From Deltaproteobacteria bacterium (GTDB lineage: Bacteria > Myxococcota_A > Polyangia > Polyangiales > Houyiibacteriaceae): a DNA stretch of 43,351 nucleotides. The DNA lies in assembly GCA_013151775.1 (NCBI GenBank), contig JAADHO010000418.1, positions 1 through 43,351 on the forward strand, given 5' to 3'. Shown piece after piece: positions 3,012 through 36,519 of the stretch (position 1 is the first letter of the stretch; each line of letters begins with the position of its first letter). Both the position numbers and the translations under genes were made by a program. Under the pieces are notes generated by a model, which searched no databases, was not told the DNA's origin, and was given only the letters and a program-made list of their open reading frames with translations.

Positions 3012-3560
3012 CTATCTCGCGGGACCTGTCCTGCTCGCGCTCTTGTCTTCGCGGCGGATCTGAATCTTCTCGCCCAAGAGGGCGCCGATCAGCGTCATCA
3101 TCACGCCCAGGGCGCCGAAGATCAGGTAGGAGATCTGCGAGACCTCGCGTACGTCGGAGATGCGCATCAGCCACGCCACCGTGGGCAGCACGGCGATGGC
3201 GGCGCCCACCGAGGGCTCGATGAAGGTCTTGCCGGGTGAGATGGCGCCGACGACCACGCCGCCGACGAACCAGATGCCCGCCGAGATCACCAGACCCCAC
3301 AACCCCTGCGGGTCGTAGCTGTCGATCACCGCCGGCAAGAGCGCCAGCGCGATCGCCTGCAGCACGATGTAGATCACGAAGGAGGCGATGACCCACTTCC
3401 ACGCGAAACCATCCTGCTGATAGCGCTTGGCTTGCCGCTCCTCTTCGGAGAGGTCGAGGGTGCCGAGGGACTCGAGCTTGGCGCCACACGCGTCGCAGCG
3501 AGATTTGTTCGCGGGGTTCTTGGCCCCGCATACGGAGCAGATGATCGTTTCCGACGCCAT
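3012..3560 (-). CDS. Zinc-ribbon membrane protein
   Basis: MASETIICSVCGAKNPANKSRCDACGAKL double CxxC zinc ribbon followed by several hydrophobic TM segments. Confidence 0.75.
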   Translation of the reverse strand: MASETIICSVCGAKNPANKSRCDACGAKLESLGTLDLSEEERQAKRYQQDGFAWKWVIASFVIYIVLQAIALALLPAVIDSYDPQGLWGLVISAGIWFVGGVVVGAISPGKTFIEPSVGAAIAVLPTVAWLMRISDVREVSQISYLIFGALGVMMTLIGALLGEKIQIRREDKSASRTGPAR

Positions 3561-3662
3561 AGGACGGCCATTGTCACAGCAGGTGGCCCTGAAACGCAAC
3601 CCATTGCAGAAAAATCCACGCAGGCGCTCGACCGGCGCGGTCGGATCTGCTGCAATCGACGC

Positions 3663-5015
3663 ATGAAGACCTTGGAAGTCGCCTTCAACGGTCTCGTGGG
3701 TCCGACACACAATTACGCAGGGCTGAGCCATGGGAACGTCGCCTCCGAGACACACGCGTCGCAGATCTCGCGCCCGAGGCAGGCGGCGCTGCAGGGTCTC
3801 GAGAAGCTGCGCCTGCTCTTCGAGCGAGGCGTGCCGTGTGGCATCCTGCCGCCGCAGGAGCGGCCGAGCATCGGCTTCTTGCGTCAGCTCGGCTTCACGG
3901 GATCGGACGTCGACGTGCTCTCGGCGGCGGCCAAGCAGCCACGCCTGCTCGCCGCTGCGTCGAGCGCCTCGTGCATGTGGACCGCCAACGCCGCCACGGT
4001 CTCGCCGAGCGCGGATACGGATGACGGTCGCGTGCATTTCACGCCGGCCAACCTCGCGAGCAAGCTGCACCGCACCCTCGAGCCCGACGCCACCGCGCGC
4101 GCACTGCGTCGGGTCTTTCACTGCGAGTCGCATTTCGCACACCACGCGCCCCTGCCCGGCGGCGTGCATCTCGGCGACGAGGGTGCGGCCAATCACACGC
4201 GCCTGTGCTCCGCGCCGGGCGCTCGAGGTCTCGAGCTCTTCACCTTTGGGCGTCGCGCCTTCGGAGGTGGCGCGGAGCCCACGCGCTACCCGGCGCGTCA
4301 GACCCTCGAGGCGTCCGAGGCCATCGCACGTCGACACGGGCTCGCGGCCACGCGGACCTTCTTCTTGCAGCAGTCGCCGGACGCCATCGACGCGGGGGTG
4401 TTTCACAACGACGTGATCGCCGTGGGCCACGAGGACCTCCTGCTGCTGCATGAGCGCGCCTACGTGGAGCATGCGGCCGCGCTCGAGGATCTGCGTCGGG
4501 CCTTCGATGGAGAGCTCTGCGTCGTCGAGGCGCGGGAGTCGGAGCTGCCGCTCGCGCACGCGGTTGGCAGCTATCTCTTCAACTCCGAGCTGCTGCGCAC
4601 CTCGGCTGGATCGCGCCTGCTCTTGGCACCGCAGGAGTGTGCCGAGGACGAGCCCACAGCGCGCTTCATCGAGCGTCTGCTCGCGTGGCCCGGCACGCCG
4701 GTGGACGAGGTGCACTACGTCGACCTGCGCGAGAGCATGCAGAACGGTGGCGGGCCCGCCTGTCTGCGTCTGCGTGTGAGCATGACCGTGCCCCAGTATC
4801 AGAGCGTGCTACGCGAGTGTCTCTACGACCTCGAAGCCCACGACAAGCTCACGGCGTGGATCGAGTGTCACTACCGAGAGCAGCTGTCAGGCAGCGACCT
4901 CGCGGATCCCGCCCTGCTCGACGAGAGCCGCCGCGCCCTAGACGAGCTCACAGGCATCCTCGCCCTAGGCAGCGACTTCTACGAGTTTCAGCGAGTTCAT
5001 CGGGGACGGTCCTAA
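3663..5015 (+). CDS. astB: N-succinylarginine dihydrolase AstB
   Basis: MKTLEVAFNGLVGPTHNYAGLSHGNVASETH...RPRQAALQGLEKL...CMWTANAATVSPSADTDDGRVHFTPANL...MQNGGGPACLRLRV, typical of AstB. The TAA stop (5013-5015) lies inside a palindromic repeat. Confidence 0.92.
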   Translation: MKTLEVAFNGLVGPTHNYAGLSHGNVASETHASQISRPRQAALQGLEKLRLLFERGVPCGILPPQERPSIGFLRQLGFTGSDVDVLSAAAKQPRLLAAASSASCMWTANAATVSPSADTDDGRVHFTPANLASKLHRTLEPDATARALRRVFHCESHFAHHAPLPGGVHLGDEGAANHTRLCSAPGARGLELFTFGRRAFGGGAEPTRYPARQTLEASEAIARRHGLAATRTFFLQQSPDAIDAGVFHNDVIAVGHEDLLLLHERAYVEHAAALEDLRRAFDGELCVVEARESELPLAHAVGSYLFNSELLRTSAGSRLLLAPQECAEDEPTARFIERLLAWPGTPVDEVHYVDLRESMQNGGGPACLRLRVSMTVPQYQSVLRECLYDLEAHDKLTAWIECHYREQLSGSDLADPALLDESRRALDELTGILALGSDFYEFQRVHRGRS

Positions 5016-5067
5016 GGAATCCACTTATTGGATGTACACAATAAGTGGATTCCTTAGGACCGTCCCC
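5002..5067. repeat. REP/RAYT-like palindromic element, copy 1 (perfect 29-bp inverted repeat, 8-nt loop); possible bidirectional terminator
   Basis: GGGGACGGTCCTAAGGAATCCACTTATTG-gatgtaca-CAATAAGTGGATTCCTTAGGACCGTCCCC; arms 5002-5030 and 5039-5067. Confidence 0.9.
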
Positions 5068-5077
5068 AAAATCAGAA

Positions 5078-5515
5078 TTATCGGACGCAGACGTCGATGA
5101 CCGGGGGCACACAGTCGTCGACGAGTTCACTCTGGCACGCGGTCCAGCTCTCTAGCTCGACGCTACACTGTGCGTTCAAGCAGGTGTCGTCATCGAGGCG
5201 GCAGCTCTGGTCTGCGGCGCAGCAGGCGAAGTCTTCGTATTCGGGTTCGCAGCCCAATTCGCGCCAGCAGAGCACGCTCTCGGTGATCAGGCAGTTCGCG
5301 CACACGGGTCGTCCATTGTAGCAGGCTCGTTCACAGTCGGTGTTGTCTGTGCAGGCCGCTAGGCAGGTCAGTATGTCGTTGGTGCAGGGCTTCCCACCCG
5401 TCCAATGCTGCAACGCGGGACCGCACTCGGTGTAGCTGAAATCGTCCGCGGGGTAGACTGCGCTGCATCCGGCGAGCGTGAGCGCGAAGAGGACGAAGAA
5501 GGCGGAGGTGCGCAT
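5078..5515 (-). CDS. Cys-rich lipoprotein
   Basis: MRTSAFFVLFALTLAGCSAVYP lipobox; 1-nt stop/start overlap (TGATG-type) with upstream TPR gene. Confidence 0.75.
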   Translation of the reverse strand: MRTSAFFVLFALTLAGCSAVYPADDFSYTECGPALQHWTGGKPCTNDILTCLAACTDNTDCERACYNGRPVCANCLITESVLCWRELGCEPEYEDFACCAADQSCRLDDDTCLNAQCSVELESWTACQSELVDDCVPPVIDVCVR

Positions 5516-8473: not shown

Positions 8474-8507
8474 GGGGACGGTCCTAAGCAGCTAAGTCGT
8501 TGCCCCG
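8474..8507 (+). repeat. REP/RAYT-like element, copy 2
   Basis: GGGGACGGTCCTAAGCAGCTAAGTCGTTGCCCCG; 26/29 identical to the first 29 nt of copy 3. Confidence 0.75.
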
Positions 8508-12524: not shown

Positions 12525-14492
12525 TTGGCATCGCCTCCATGGAACCTTCCCTGCGTGCACACGCCCCACGCTGTCTCGCTTGGTCTCCTCGCGCTCCTCG
12601 CCCTCGCTTCCTGCGTCTCGCCCGCGTCCGAGGTCGCGCCACGTCGTGCGGCCATCGCCGGCGGCACGCCCGAGCCGGGTGAGCCTGCGGTGGTTGGGGT
12701 GAAGCTCGTGGGCGGCGCGGCCTCCTGCACGGGCACATTAATCTCGCCGAGCGTCGTGCTCACCGCCAAGCACTGTGTGCAGCTCTCGGGCGCCGAGGGT
12801 CCCGTACCCCCTGGTCTGCTCAGCATCACGCTGGGCTCGAGCTTGTTCGGTGGCACGGACTTTCGCGTGCGCCGTGTGGCCACGACCCCGGGCCGCTTCA
12901 GCACATCGGGGGGTCTCTCGGGCGCTCTCGTGGGCATCGACGTGGCGGTGATGACGCTTCGCCCCGACGCGGACGGAAACCTGCCGGACGTCACGCCCAT
13001 GCCCATCTTCCGGGGTGATCCAGTGGAGTTGGTCGGCCGTGACGTGACCTTCGTGGGCTATGGGCAGCGACCCGATGGCGAGTCTGGTGAGAAATACACG
13101 AAGGTGGGGCAGGTTCAGAGCGTGCGCAGCGGGGACCTCTACTCTTCGGGCAACATCTGTTCGGGAGACTCGGGCGGACCCATGATCTGGGAAGACGCAC
13201 CCGGTGGACGTGCCGTGGTCGGTGTCGCCTCCTTCGGGCAGGCCACCGTCGCGGGTCCTGCGTGTCCGAGCACGGTCGACGCACACAACGTGCTTCAGCC
13301 CTTCCTCGGGCTGATCGACACCGCGCTCTACGAGGCGGGCGATTGTCCCTTCGTGACCGAGGAGCTGTGCAACGGCCTCGACGACAACTGCGACGGAGAG
13401 ATCGACGAGGGCTGCCTCGGGCTCGGCGAGGCCTGCACGAGCGACGACGAGTGCGGCTTCGCGCAGCTGCCCGAGCGCTTCGAGCCGCGCGCCGACGCCG
13501 TGACCTGTGGCGAGACCCCGGCGGGTCGCGTGTGCACCCACACCTGCTCTCCCCTGCGGCCTCTGGAGAGCTGCGCCTTCATTCAGCACGCCTTCGACGC
13601 GGGGTCCGACGACACGCCCGGCGCCTACTGCGCTACGACCACCGGTTGCGAGGGCGCGTGTGTCGCCGGCGCGCCCGGGGCCCTCGCCAACGCTGCGGAC
13701 TGCAGCGCCGACACGGACTGCGCTTCGCTCTCCTGCTTCGATCCGGGGGACGGCCGAGCGCGCTGCCTCTCACGCTGTCAGGGAGGCGAAGGTCAGTGCG
13801 CCGTCGGGGAGGTCTGCGGGGTGAACGTGGGCGCCTGTGGAGGCTGCTTGCCCGGGGACTTCGTCAGCGGCCTCCGCGCCTTCGGGGAGGGCTGCGCCCA
13901 AGACGCCGACTGCGGCAGCGGCAGCTGCGTGATCGAGGGCGCGACGGGCTACTGCAGCGCCGCCTGCAGCACGGATGCGGACTGCCCCACGCTGGGCCAC
14001 TGTCGAGACGCCCTGTGTCGACGTGGCGCGCCCGCGGAAGACGGCGAAGCCTGCCTGACGGACGAAGACTGTGTGCGCGCCGACAGCTGTCGGGTGGACG
14101 CGGAGCGCGCCTATTGCTCGCGCTCCTGCAGCCGAGATCGCGACTGTGGCGAGGGCACGCGCTGCGACGTGGACCACTGCGCGCCGACCGGGGCCTTGCT
14201 CGGCGAGGCCTGCGCGGCCGACATGGACTGCGCCTCGGGTCGCTGCCTCGAGCTAGCCGGGGAGCGCATCTGCACGCAGCTCTGCGGCGCCTCGGCCGGC
14301 TGCCCCGTGGGTCTCGAATGCGTGCGGGGTGACGTCGCCGAGGCCTACTGTCACACGCCTGCGCCCTCGGGTGGAGGCTGTTCCGTGGGCGCCTCGAACG
14401 AAGCGCCTCCCGCGTGGCTGCTCATCGGCCTCAGCGCGCTGTTCCTCCGCCGTCGACGTCGCTTCGGGACGTCGCTTCGGGGACGGTCCTAA
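12525..14492 (+). CDS. Secreted S1-family serine protease with Cys-rich repeats and MYXO-CTERM-like tail
   Basis: Triad motifs LTAKHC, GIDVAVM, CSGDSGGPM; LCNGLDDNCDGEIDEGC metal-binding motif; tail GGGCSVGASNEAPPAWLLIGLSALFLRRRRRFG. Stop codon lies in repeat copy 3. Confidence 0.87.
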   Translation: MASPPWNLPCVHTPHAVSLGLLALLALASCVSPASEVAPRRAAIAGGTPEPGEPAVVGVKLVGGAASCTGTLISPSVVLTAKHCVQLSGAEGPVPPGLLSITLGSSLFGGTDFRVRRVATTPGRFSTSGGLSGALVGIDVAVMTLRPDADGNLPDVTPMPIFRGDPVELVGRDVTFVGYGQRPDGESGEKYTKVGQVQSVRSGDLYSSGNICSGDSGGPMIWEDAPGGRAVVGVASFGQATVAGPACPSTVDAHNVLQPFLGLIDTALYEAGDCPFVTEELCNGLDDNCDGEIDEGCLGLGEACTSDDECGFAQLPERFEPRADAVTCGETPAGRVCTHTCSPLRPLESCAFIQHAFDAGSDDTPGAYCATTTGCEGACVAGAPGALANAADCSADTDCASLSCFDPGDGRARCLSRCQGGEGQCAVGEVCGVNVGACGGCLPGDFVSGLRAFGEGCAQDADCGSGSCVIEGATGYCSAACSTDADCPTLGHCRDALCRRGAPAEDGEACLTDEDCVRADSCRVDAERAYCSRSCSRDRDCGEGTRCDVDHCAPTGALLGEACAADMDCASGRCLELAGERICTQLCGASAGCPVGLECVRGDVAEAYCHTPAPSGGGCSVGASNEAPPAWLLIGLSALFLRRRRRFGTSLRGRS

Positions 14493-14517
14493 GCAGTCAA
14501 GTTGTTGAGATGTCCCT
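14479..14517 (+). repeat. REP/RAYT-like element, copy 3
   Basis: GGGGACGGTCCTAAGCAGTCAAGTTGTTGAGATGTCCCT; terminal GGGGAC / GTCCCT inverted ends. Confidence 0.8.
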
Positions 14518-16945: not shown

Positions 16946-18655
16946 ATGTTCAAGCCTGGAGACCAGATCGATCACTACCAGGTGATCGCCCAGCTGAAGT
17001 CGGGCGGCATGGCGACGCTCTTCCTCGCGCGCCGTCAAGGCGCTGCTGGATTCGCCAAGCACGTGGCCATCAAGCTGATCCACAGCCACCTCGCCACGAA
17101 CGACCGCTTCGTCCAGATGTTCGTAGACGAGGCCATGCTCTCGGCACGGATTCACCACCCGAACGTCGTACACGTGGAGGAACTCGGCGAGACCGAGGGC
17201 ACCTACTACCTGGTGATGGAGTACGTGCACGGCGGTTCTCTGGCGCAGCTGCTGAAGGCGCTGGCCAAGGCGCGTCGCCGGATGCTCCCAGAGCTCGCCG
17301 TCAGTATCGCCGTGGCTGTGGCCGATGGCCTGCATGCCGCCCACGAGACCACGGGCGACGACGGTCGCCTGCTGGGTGTGGTTCACCGCGACGTGACTCC
17401 CGAGAATGTGCTGATCGCCTTCAAGGGCCACGTGAAGCTGATCGACTTCGGCGTCGCCAAGGCTCGTGAGCGCACGAACCAGACGACCGCGGGCACGCTG
17501 AAGGGCAAGTTCGCCTACATGGCGCCCGAGCAGGCCAAGGGCCTCGCCGTGGACCGCCGCACGGATATCTACGCCTTGGGGATCGTGCTCTGGGAGATGC
17601 TGACCATGCGTCGGCTCTTCAAGTCCCAGAACGATCTCGAGCTCCTCGACATGGTCCGCGATCCACACGTGAGGCCGCCGAGTGAGCTCGCGCCGGGGAT
17701 CCCGCCCGCGCTGGACGCCGTCGTGCTCAAGGCCCTCGCACCCAACGCAGACGATCGCTACCCCGACGGTCGCGCGTTTCGCCGGGCCCTCGCGGACGCC
17801 GTTCCACGTGCGCTGGCCATGGACGCTTCGCACCTGAGCGATCTCATGGCCACGGTGATGCACGACGAGATCCAGCGCGAGCGCGCCTCCATTCCGGAGA
17901 GCGTCTCGGGCATCGTCGAACCTCGTGGCGCGAGCTCTGTGGATCAGGAAGAGGTGCTGCGCACGCTCACCATCGACGCCGCGGATCTGGAGAGTCCTGC
18001 GGCCACCGTGTCCTCCCGCGGTGCCGCGGCCGGTCCGCCCCGAGCCGGAGGCGCTCCACCGCCGCCACCACCAGTGGACGGTGAGCCCACGGGCGCCACG
18101 CCTGTGGTGACTCCCAGCGGGCCAGGGCGAAGTCTGGCCATCGCCGTCGTCGCCTTGATCGCGATTCTGGGGGGTGGTTTCTTTGGAGGCCGCGCGCTCT
18201 TCGCTCCGGAGGAGACCTCGAGCGTGTCCAATCCGCCTCCGCGAGTTACCACCTCCGAGACCACGGACGCGGGTCTCGCCGAGCAAGAGCAGCAGCCGGA
18301 GCCCGGCATCGCCACACCGGTTGGATCGAGCGAAGCGGACGCCGGCACCGACGCGGCCCGCGCGGCTCTAGACGTGCCACCTTCTGTCGAGCCACCAGTC
18401 GAGCCGCCTCCTGTCGCGACGCAGATGGTCGCGACGCAGATGGTCGCAACGCAGATGGTCCAGGCCGCACAGAACACATGGCATCGGCGCCCGGTACGCG
18501 AGGGGAACACGATGCGAACAGACATGACGGAGCGTCACCGCCCGACGGCAGAGATGCAGCCCGCGGCCATGATGGAGGAGGCGACGATGGTCTCCACCAC
18601 GACCATGGGTGGTCGCACCGTGGTCACTCCCTTCGTGGACAACCCGGGGTTCTGA
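16946..18655 (+). CDS. Eukaryotic-like Ser/Thr protein kinase with TM segment and repetitive tail
   Basis: VVHRDVTPENVLIAFKGHVKLIDFGVAK, GTLKGKFAYMAPEQAKG; TM SLAIAVVALIAILGGGFFGGRALF. Confidence 0.92.
   Translation: MFKPGDQIDHYQVIAQLKSGGMATLFLARRQGAAGFAKHVAIKLIHSHLATNDRFVQMFVDEAMLSARIHHPNVVHVEELGETEGTYYLVMEYVHGGSLAQLLKALAKARRRMLPELAVSIAVAVADGLHAAHETTGDDGRLLGVVHRDVTPENVLIAFKGHVKLIDFGVAKARERTNQTTAGTLKGKFAYMAPEQAKGLAVDRRTDIYALGIVLWEMLTMRRLFKSQNDLELLDMVRDPHVRPPSELAPGIPPALDAVVLKALAPNADDRYPDGRAFRRALADAVPRALAMDASHLSDLMATVMHDEIQRERASIPESVSGIVEPRGASSVDQEEVLRTLTIDAADLESPAATVSSRGAAAGPPRAGGAPPPPPPVDGEPTGATPVVTPSGPGRSLAIAVVALIAILGGGFFGGRALFAPEETSSVSNPPPRVTTSETTDAGLAEQEQQPEPGIATPVGSSEADAGTDAARAALDVPPSVEPPVEPPPVATQMVATQMVATQMVQAAQNTWHRRPVREGNTMRTDMTERHRPTAEMQPAAMMEEATMVSTTTMGGRTVVTPFVDNPGF
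18413..18460. repeat. In-frame 15-bp tandem repeat (3 copies) encoding VATQM
   Basis: gtcgcgacgcagatg gtcgcgacgcagatg gtcgcaacgcagatg gtc. Confidence 0.9.
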
Positions 18656-27666: not shown

Positions 27667-27756
27667 CGAGATTTGGCCACGCATGCTGTCTAAGGTGGCC
27701 AAATCTCGATTGCGGAGAAAGATTTGGCCACCTATGCTGTCAAACGTGGCCAAATC
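27667..27756. repeat. Tandem pair of 36-bp inverted-repeat elements (51-bp spacing)
   Basis: 27670-27705 GATTTGGCCACgcATGCTGTCtaagGTGGCCAAATC and 27721-27756 GATTTGGCCACctATGCTGTCaaacGTGGCCAAATC; first copy arms extend to 14 bp (27667-27680/27695-27708). Confidence 0.93.
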
Positions 27757-32132: not shown

Positions 32133-32173
32133 AGGGACGGTCCTAAGCAGTTAAGAAATGAGATATTGTCTCC
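32133..32173 (+). repeat. REP/RAYT-like element, copy 4
   Basis: AGGGACGGTCCTAAGCAGTTAAGAAATGAGATATTGTCTCC; shares GGGACGGTCCTAAGCAG core with copies 2 and 3. Confidence 0.72.
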
Positions 32174-34430: not shown

Positions 34431-36416
34431 TCAGTCGGGACCGCCGGGGAGGGCAACCTCGGGCGGCACCAGGAAGAAGATGTCGCGCGAGTCGAGCTCG
34501 GTGAAGCCGTCTCCGAGGACGCGCAGGGTGGCGCGGAAGATCTGCGGCATGGTGGTGGGAGGAACGGTGTCGTTCTGCTTCACGACGATGTCGAAGCAGA
34601 TGGGGGAACCGGGCGTGACGCCGCGGAAGGTGTCGGGATAGCCGTCTCCGTCCGTGTCCTCACCCGTGCGCGGATCGCAGCCACGCGCCGGGTCGCCCGC
34701 CTCGTTGGCTTGGAGGTGGTCGACGAAGGCGGCGAAGCTGTCCACCGAGTCGCCCGGGTCGTCCTCGTAGACGAGGGAGATGTCGATGGGCGTCTCGTTG
34801 GCCAAGGTGCTGATCTGATTGACCACCGAGTCGCTGATGGCGCCTCCGCTGTACAGCGAGACCAAGGGCGCACCACCGGCGTCCACCGCGCCGCTGTCTC
34901 GGGCGATGTCGCGCAGGTCCGAGATGCCGCCGCTGCCCTGGCCGATGCCGATCACTCGAATTCGGGCGGCCGTGATCGCGGCGAGCATGGTCGCGTAGTT
35001 GGTGTAGCCGTAGCCGTTGCCTCCCGCCTTGTTGTTGTGGAAGGGGGCGTCCGTGATCAGCACCACGATCGGCACAGCGCCCGAGCGGAAGCAGGGGTAG
35101 CCGAAGGTACCGGCCGGGCAGCCCGTGCGGTTGCTGATGCCATAGCCGCCGGGGCTCATGCCCGTGGCGACGGACCACAGCACGGGGACGTCTCCCTCGG
35201 GACCGTCACCGCCGCCACCGGGGCTTAGGGTGCGGAGCGCTGCCTGTGAGGCTGCGGGATCCGAACTCAGGTCTTGGCGGTTGCGGTACATGGGGCTGTC
35301 GCCGTAGTCCCTGAACTCCCCAATGCCGAACCACACGTCGGGGATGACGGCGCGTACCCGCGGGATCAAGCCTGAAAGTCCGGTGCGTAGGCTGTTGATC
35401 GAGCCACTCATGGAGCCCGTGGTGTCCATCAAGAAGTAGACGTCGGCGACCTGCAGGTCGGTGGAGAAGACGAGGGTGTCACGCAGGGGATCCGGAGCCT
35501 CCATGTAGGGCTCGAGGAAGACGAAGTCTCCGCGCGTGCGCGGGCTCGCGCTCGGGTCCGTGGCGTCCATGGCGCAGGAGGGGTCTCCTCCGCAGGCGGC
35601 CACCTCGATCAGGTCGGTCACTCCATCGCCGTCCGTGTCGGCGAGGCGCGGGTTGGTGCCGGCGAGGCGCTCGGCCTCGTCGCTGAGTCCATCGTTGTCG
35701 CTGTCTGGATCGCGGAAGTCGGGCGTGAGGTCACCGTCCGTGTCGACGGGAGGTGTGGTCGGATCGCCGTCGCCGGACTCCTCCATGTCGGAGTAGCCGT
35801 CTCCATCCGTGTCGAGGTCGTGACGGTCCGGCGTGCCGTCTCCGTCCGTGTCCTCGGGCAGCGCCTCGAAGCGGTCGCCGATGGTGTCGTCGTCGCTGTC
35901 GATGTCGAGGTAGTCGGGCAGCCCGTCCCCGTCGTAGTCGATGGGCGCCGCGGGATCCCCACCGATCTCGTCCACATCGGTGACGGAGTCGCCATCGTTG
36001 TCGAGATCGGCGTAGTCGCCCACGCCGTTTCCGTCCGTGTCGATGGCTCCCTCCGTGACGTCGGGGATGCCGTTGCCATCCGAGTCGAGGTCGCGGAAGT
36101 CGGGCGTGCCGTCACCGTCCGCGTCGCGCGGAGGCACGTCGGCTCCGAAGGTCCCACCCTCGTCCGAGTCGGGGATTCCGTCGCCGTCGCTGTCGGTGTC
36201 CTGATAGTCCGGTGTGCCGTCCCCGTCCGTGTCGGGCGCGCCTCCGGGATCCTCTGAGCCCTCGTAGAAGTCCGAGATGCCGTCACCGTCCGCGTCTCGC
36301 AGGGGAGGCGCCGTGGTGCCGTCGCGGCCGCCTCCGTCGGGGGTGGGGTTCGAGGTCGAGGCGCTGCAGCCCAATGCCAGCGCTCCCATCAAACATACAA
36401 GTGCAAATCTACGCAT
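34431..36416 (-). CDS. Lipoprotein with thrombospondin type-3-like Ca-binding repeats and VWA domain
   Basis: LMGALALGCSAS lipobox; DxDGDGxxD repeats; VYFLMDTTGSMSGS MIDAS motif. Confidence 0.88.
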   Translation of the reverse strand: MRRFALVCLMGALALGCSASTSNPTPDGGGRDGTTAPPLRDADGDGISDFYEGSEDPGGAPDTDGDGTPDYQDTDSDGDGIPDSDEGGTFGADVPPRDADGDGTPDFRDLDSDGNGIPDVTEGAIDTDGNGVGDYADLDNDGDSVTDVDEIGGDPAAPIDYDGDGLPDYLDIDSDDDTIGDRFEALPEDTDGDGTPDRHDLDTDGDGYSDMEESGDGDPTTPPVDTDGDLTPDFRDPDSDNDGLSDEAERLAGTNPRLADTDGDGVTDLIEVAACGGDPSCAMDATDPSASPRTRGDFVFLEPYMEAPDPLRDTLVFSTDLQVADVYFLMDTTGSMSGSINSLRTGLSGLIPRVRAVIPDVWFGIGEFRDYGDSPMYRNRQDLSSDPAASQAALRTLSPGGGGDGPEGDVPVLWSVATGMSPGGYGISNRTGCPAGTFGYPCFRSGAVPIVVLITDAPFHNNKAGGNGYGYTNYATMLAAITAARIRVIGIGQGSGGISDLRDIARDSGAVDAGGAPLVSLYSGGAISDSVVNQISTLANETPIDISLVYEDDPGDSVDSFAAFVDHLQANEAGDPARGCDPRTGEDTDGDGYPDTFRGVTPGSPICFDIVVKQNDTVPPTTMPQIFRATLRVLGDGFTELDSRDIFFLVPPEVALPGGPD

Positions 36417-36519
36417 CCGCGCCTCCGAAACTACCAGGGGGTTTGCAGGGTAGCGGAAATGATCCTCGGATGACAACGCCCCCCGGACGGAAGCGGTGAC
36501 GGACGCGGAGCGGCGGGCT

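Follow-up and report, generated by a model that had tools for sequence, protein, structure and literature searches.

A RAYT-linked palindromic repeat, putatively mobile, clusters at the 3' ends of unrelated genes and provides some of them with a stop codon

Two unrelated proteins encoded in a 43,351 nucleotide stretch of a deltaproteobacterial genome (contig JAADHO010000418.1; the whole stretch analysed is called the window below) end in the same residues and the same stop codon, which are supplied by copies of one short repeat. Ten genes of this genome stop inside a copy, and the clustering of copies at gene 3' ends is real and striking in its strength. We interpret the repeat as a non-autonomous palindromic mobile element associated with a RAYT transposase (REPIN/TIRtron-like), whose insertions at 3' ends are tolerated and whose donation of stop codons is a by-product, a reading to which we assign a probability of about 0.8.

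Within the window the 14-mer GGGGACGGTCCTAA at 14479-14492 provides the last residues (RGRS) and the TAA stop of a trypsin-like protease with a MYXO-CTERM motif (TIGR03901, residues 616-646). Positions 14476-14492 read ctt cgg gga cgg tcc taa, and the protease ORF (12525-14492, + strand) closes as ...RRRRRFGTSLRGRS* (asterisk, stop); the C-terminus of its relatives comes shortly past an arginine run (RRRR tail). Another copy, at 5002-5015, closes AstB as ...FYEFQRVHRGRS* in the same frame as the protease copy, giving FQRVHRGRS* here versus FQR* in relatives. The earlier note had reported that AstB and the S1/MYXO-CTERM protease both end in RGRS in one frame, and the sequence, the coordinates and both ORF ends confirm it. 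With at most one mismatch allowed, the window has 9 occurrences of GGGGACGGTCC where 1.8 would be expected. The host sites and neighbouring copies are:

3432..5015, + strand: AstB (succinylarginine dihydrolase; PF04996, E 4.8e-182), ending ...FQRVHRGRS*
5002..5067, no strand assigned: full palindromic element of 66 bp with 29-bp perfect arms (RNA fold -57.6 kcal/mol)
5078..5515, - strand: convergent ORF that keeps its own stop, 10 bp beyond the opposite end of the 5002-5067 element (gene calling)
8474..8501, + strand: solo half element adjacent to a protein-kinase gene at its 5' end and thus no 3'-end case (element/gene-end map)
12525..14492, + strand: trypsin-like protease (Pfam Trypsin, E 7.2e-16) that carries a MYXO-CTERM tail and terminates within the element as ...LRGRS*
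14479..14506, + strand: solo half element supplying the protease's C-terminal GRS and TAA stop (14490-14492)
32133..32160, + strand: solo half element with first base A, between divergent genes (element/gene-end map)

A + strand ORF ending FQGRS* (stop at 32146) over the last of these elements scored 28 versus 177 for the gene on the opposite strand, is probably spurious, and was dropped. Other repeats occur in the window as well: two near-identical 37-bp palindromic units (AGATTTGGCCAC...GTGGCCAAATC) 51 bp apart at 27669-27756, possibly another small repeat family; 8 diverged repeats of ~75 bp at 35670-36335, within the minus-strand ORF 34431-36476; and a short sequence, GTCGCGACGCAGATG, repeated directly with a period of 15 bp at 18398-18457.

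Across the genome (6.05 Mb, a fragmented assembly of 460 contigs) the 14-mer GGGGACGGTCCTAA has 44 exact copies, compared with 0 for its reversed control, and GGGACGGTCCTAAG has 47 exact matches at ~32 loci. The full unit is a perfect palindrome of 73 or 66 bp with the layout GGGGACGGTCCTAAG-arm-loop-arm-CTTAGGACCGTCCCC. Most copies are inverted pairs forming this palindrome. The remainder are single halves of 28 bp, such as the one at 14479, or halves arranged in tandem at a spacing of 28 bp. The earlier note had called the element an insertion sequence, a term that does not apply to the unit itself: with a length of 28, 66 or 73 bp it carries no gene and hence no transposase of its own. Reading inward from either end of the element, one frame meets a TAA and another frame meets a second TAA 8 bases later. 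Full units fold as RNA at -57.6 to -67.7 kcal/mol; neither of the solo halves at 14479 and 8474 folds more stably than shuffled sequence.

Alignment of 11 full copies reveals an invariant outer 15 bp and variable arms. Despite the differences between copies the arms pair at 99.7% of cells, both sides have changed in 10 of 35 pairs, and none of 500 shuffles reaches such covariation. Because the arms vary between copies yet stay paired, the palindrome is evidently maintained, and the covariation suggests either arm-to-arm copying or strong constraint on the hairpin. The differences at the ten pairs are complementary within each copy, as for example at L033:949-1021 (alignment A1). The three positions that immediately precede the GGGG terminus are rich in T, with T in 24-28 of 48 ends at positions -1 to -3 and A in 1 of 48 at -1; this outer flank could be an insertion preference or a part of the element.

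The ten genes that stop inside an element use two of the three possible frames, seven ending ...GRS* and three ...GTVLxx*, with none in the third frame, which lacks an early stop, and no gene read through an element:

GGA CGG TCC TAA frame: AstB, the protease, a HisC-type aminotransferase, a gamma-carbonic anhydrase, an alpha/beta hydrolase, a Nudix protein and an AlaX-like protein
Frame stopping 8 bases later (GTVLSN*, GTVLSS*, GTVLRN*): a LolA-like protein, a thioesterase and a short BamD/TPR-like ORF

Clear database relatives exist for nine of the ten. The BamD-like ORF is the weakest case, and at least nine unrelated genes have a stop supplied by the element. Comparison with relatives and with joined flanks indicates what some of these ends were before. 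At hisC a same-genus genome (G001) aligns continuously across the site, convergent neighbour included, which is the empty site expected of a mobile (MITE-like) element and was found at this one locus. Joined together, the flanks of the hisC element read ACT GCC TTG G^AG ATC TAG (TALEI*) where the present end is TALGGRS*, so the insertion took place two codons ahead of the old stop, which the element's own stop has replaced. Joining the flanks of the AlaX-like gene restores an in-frame TGA (LRCIS*, now LRCISWGRS*), and a same-genus protein ends nearby at RFLG*; relatives of the alpha/beta hydrolase end near FLPRS*, compared with FLPRASGGRS* here. The joined flanks of AstB, the gamma-carbonic anhydrase and the BamD-like gene restore no nearby stop, indicating that these sites have changed since insertion or that the boundary is not a simple one, and a same-genus search with the gene beside the gamma-carbonic-anhydrase site returned weak partial matches only and no usable empty site.

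Positions relative to genes were evaluated in the window and in stretches of at most 13 kb surrounding each site, with genes called by a home-made codon-usage scorer trained on the studied loci. Outer element ends face a gene 3' end in 29 of 48 instances. Of the genes concerned, 10 terminate within the element itself, 18 terminate before reaching it at a distance of 1 to 20 bp, and for one the distance is 128 bp. Overlap or a distance of at most 20 bp thus characterises 28 of 29 3'-facing ends versus 15% of random intergenic positions (P ~4e-22), a bias far larger than the effect of the incomplete independence of the two ends of one element. The non-overlapping 3'-facing ends alone give 18 of 19 within 20 bp (P 4e-14), and ends that face a gene 5' end show no proximity (2 of 19, null 14%). 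Targeting of AT-rich flanks alone was rejected as the cause, given that weighting random intergenic sites by the flank preference lowers the expected proximity to 12%. What the earlier note had proposed from two proteins, an element that lands at 3' ends and supplies stops to unrelated genes, is accordingly what the genome contains: the genes stopping in the element number ten rather than two, and the 3'-end bias is extreme.

A candidate source of mobility lies on another contig, C439, where a Y1/HUH transposase gene has a + half of the same repeat on one side and two - halves on the other:

C439 (L055:4482-5615): RAYT-like gene, bracketed by inverted repeats (+ half at L055:4409; two - halves at L055:5633-5688)

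The encoded protein has the HUH motif (HIH at 71-73), the Y1 catalytic tyrosine (Tyr133 in YVHNNPVRA) and the RAYT NNP signature. We call it RAYT-like because its match to the NCBIfam RAYT model NF047646 (E 8.7e-12, 45.1 bits) is below the curated cut-off of 80; a PDB sequence search with the protein gave no matches. Bracketing by inverted copies of a genome-dispersed repeat is one mark of a RAYT, and because the same motif brackets this gene we assign the element to RAYT/TIRtron-type miniature elements. GGGGAC-type inverted repeats of their own also flank the RAYT-like genes found in three relatives and another such gene of the same genome, on contig C55. A third Y1 transposase gene (L057:3491-4842; G000 C203) is flanked by inverted repeats of an unrelated type, AGCTTCCAGGATGAATT.

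To judge from its position between copies of the repeat, the C439 transposase probably mobilises the element, moving it in trans as a single-stranded hairpin; this transposition activity is putative. Since each end of the element has an early TAA in two inward frames, a copy entering at a gene's end or slightly upstream of it would shorten or lengthen the protein by only a few residues and would hence be tolerated. Such tolerance of insertions that stop within a few residues would account for the seven ...GRS* and three ...GTVLxx* ends. The donation of stops is an observation; that it is a tolerated by-product of insertion at 3' ends rather than a selected property is what we infer.

The principal alternative is that the stop itself is selected. 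The same genome holds a second RAYT-linked family (GGGGACGCTCTGCG...), without an early stop, which lies mostly between divergent genes, so that a 3'-end bias is not general for RAYT-linked repeats. Its RAYT-like gene (L154:2074-3172; G000 C55:24073-25171) has its own stop-less inverted repeat, GGGGACGCTCTGCGTCATTGCGTCATTCG, of which five further loci have exact copies, most of them lying between divergent genes. One could suppose a portable stop under selection, by which the family with early stops colonises coding 3' ends and its stop-less sister is confined to intergenic, mostly divergent sites, and the contrast in location would be compatible with the stop codon playing a part as well; we nevertheless consider this unlikely. 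Only 1 of 11 ends of the second family lies within 20 bp of a gene 3' end, versus 28 of 48 for the first (Fisher P=0.006), but the second family comprises six loci only and may have a different target.

A narrower form of this idea, that the TAA in the GGA CGG TCC TAA frame is kept, or that in-frame insertions are preferentially retained, as a clean or backup stop before a stable hairpin, we hold to be distinctly unlikely. It echoes the suggestion of the earlier note that a GGACGGTCC-TAA reading frame is selected, and the frame counts lean slightly that way: the genes that lost their own stop are distributed 7/3/0 over the three frames (7 of 10 in the GRS frame, P=0.02), and 16 of all 28 gene-end elements are in that frame (P=0.008), in both instances by tests made post hoc, after the pattern had been seen. 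However, 18 of the 28 elements come after an intact upstream stop of the gene, where the element's frame is untranslated, and these genes alone give a non-significant 9 of 18 in frame (P=0.11). The invariance of the first 15 bp, which would suit a conserved stop cassette, is equally expected from a transposase recognition site. The frame skew therefore lends the suggestion a little weight, and the neutral reading, 3'-end insertion plus tolerance of insertions that stop quickly, suffices.

The hairpins might instead be host regulatory elements, terminators or 3' stabilisers of mRNA, kept at gene ends for their function, with the overlap of stops incidental. Very stable hairpins do lie directly after stop codons, and E. 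coli REPs at most 15 nt from the stop are described as stalling ribosomes (Liang 2015, as cited in PMC12306157). Yet the conserved end CCGTCCCC is followed by no T-run of the intrinsic-terminator type, copies also occur between divergent genes and as half units, and a motif search of 57 related genomes found no exact copy, unlike the distribution of a conserved terminator; we regard this explanation as quite improbable. Chance or an assembly artefact, which the number of contigs and three copies near contig ends might bring to mind, is negligible and is refuted by the copy number and distinct flanking context of each of the 44 exact copies, as well as by another genome in which the orthologous locus is an empty site.

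The reading of a RAYT-associated mobile element with tolerated 3'-end insertions places the phenomenon among known ones, because gene-end location and stop donation by REP-type repeats have already been published. The repeat family itself is new relative to the literature searched, where a query with the terminal motif had only unrelated papers among the matches listed. What stands out is the tightness of the 3'-end bias and the contrast between the two families. As to why REP-type repeats are placed so tightly at gene 3' ends, an early-stop and a stop-less family that differ in location within one genome make it possible to test whether the terminus, by its stop content, governs which insertions persist. 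For annotation there is a warning as well, in that identical C-termini of unrelated proteins (RGRS, GGRS, WGRS) can be mobile-element sequence.

The nearest counterparts are the TIRtrons/TIRYTs, in which a RAYT-like gene is bracketed by inverted repeats (Di Nocera et al. 2013, PMC3733652). As in the part of that source describing them, the RAYT-like gene here lies within GGGG... inverted repeats and the repeat is moderately abundant elsewhere as dimers, clusters and singles, here as pairs, tandems and solos at ~32 loci. Unlike the TIR motif GGGGWSAS given there, the present units begin GGGGACGG, matching 7 of 8 positions with G rather than A as the seventh base; the passages of PMC3733652 on TIR repeats hold no stop-codon data. 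GTAG REPs and REPINs, as portrayed in sections of PMC2817692, PMC3116915 and PMC3733652, share the HUH/Y1 transposase flanked by its own repeat, the inverted pairs that form hairpins and the location at gene 3' ends. According to PMC3733652, most REPs lie downstream of genes, in many cases with each of two convergent neighbours ending <20 bp away, and ORFs flanking GTAG REPs often take their TAG stop from the REP terminus. Unlike these, the units begin GGGGACGG, with no GTAG tag at the foot of a 20-40 nt hairpin, the half unit is a poor hairpin, and the donated stop is a TAA 12-14 bases inside the element. Rickettsia palindromic elements, as described in PMC3733652, are likewise short palindromes that become protein-coding, although they sit in frame inside ORFs whereas none is read through here. 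The Coxiella elements QMITE1 and QMITE2 differ in being MITEs with direct repeats, described in passages of PMC5896051 that mention neither a RAYT link nor a frame preference, but they resemble the present family in both the site and the product of insertion: according to those passages functional genes are hit solely at the 3' end, and the element gives them C-terminal residues, 33 in EnhC.
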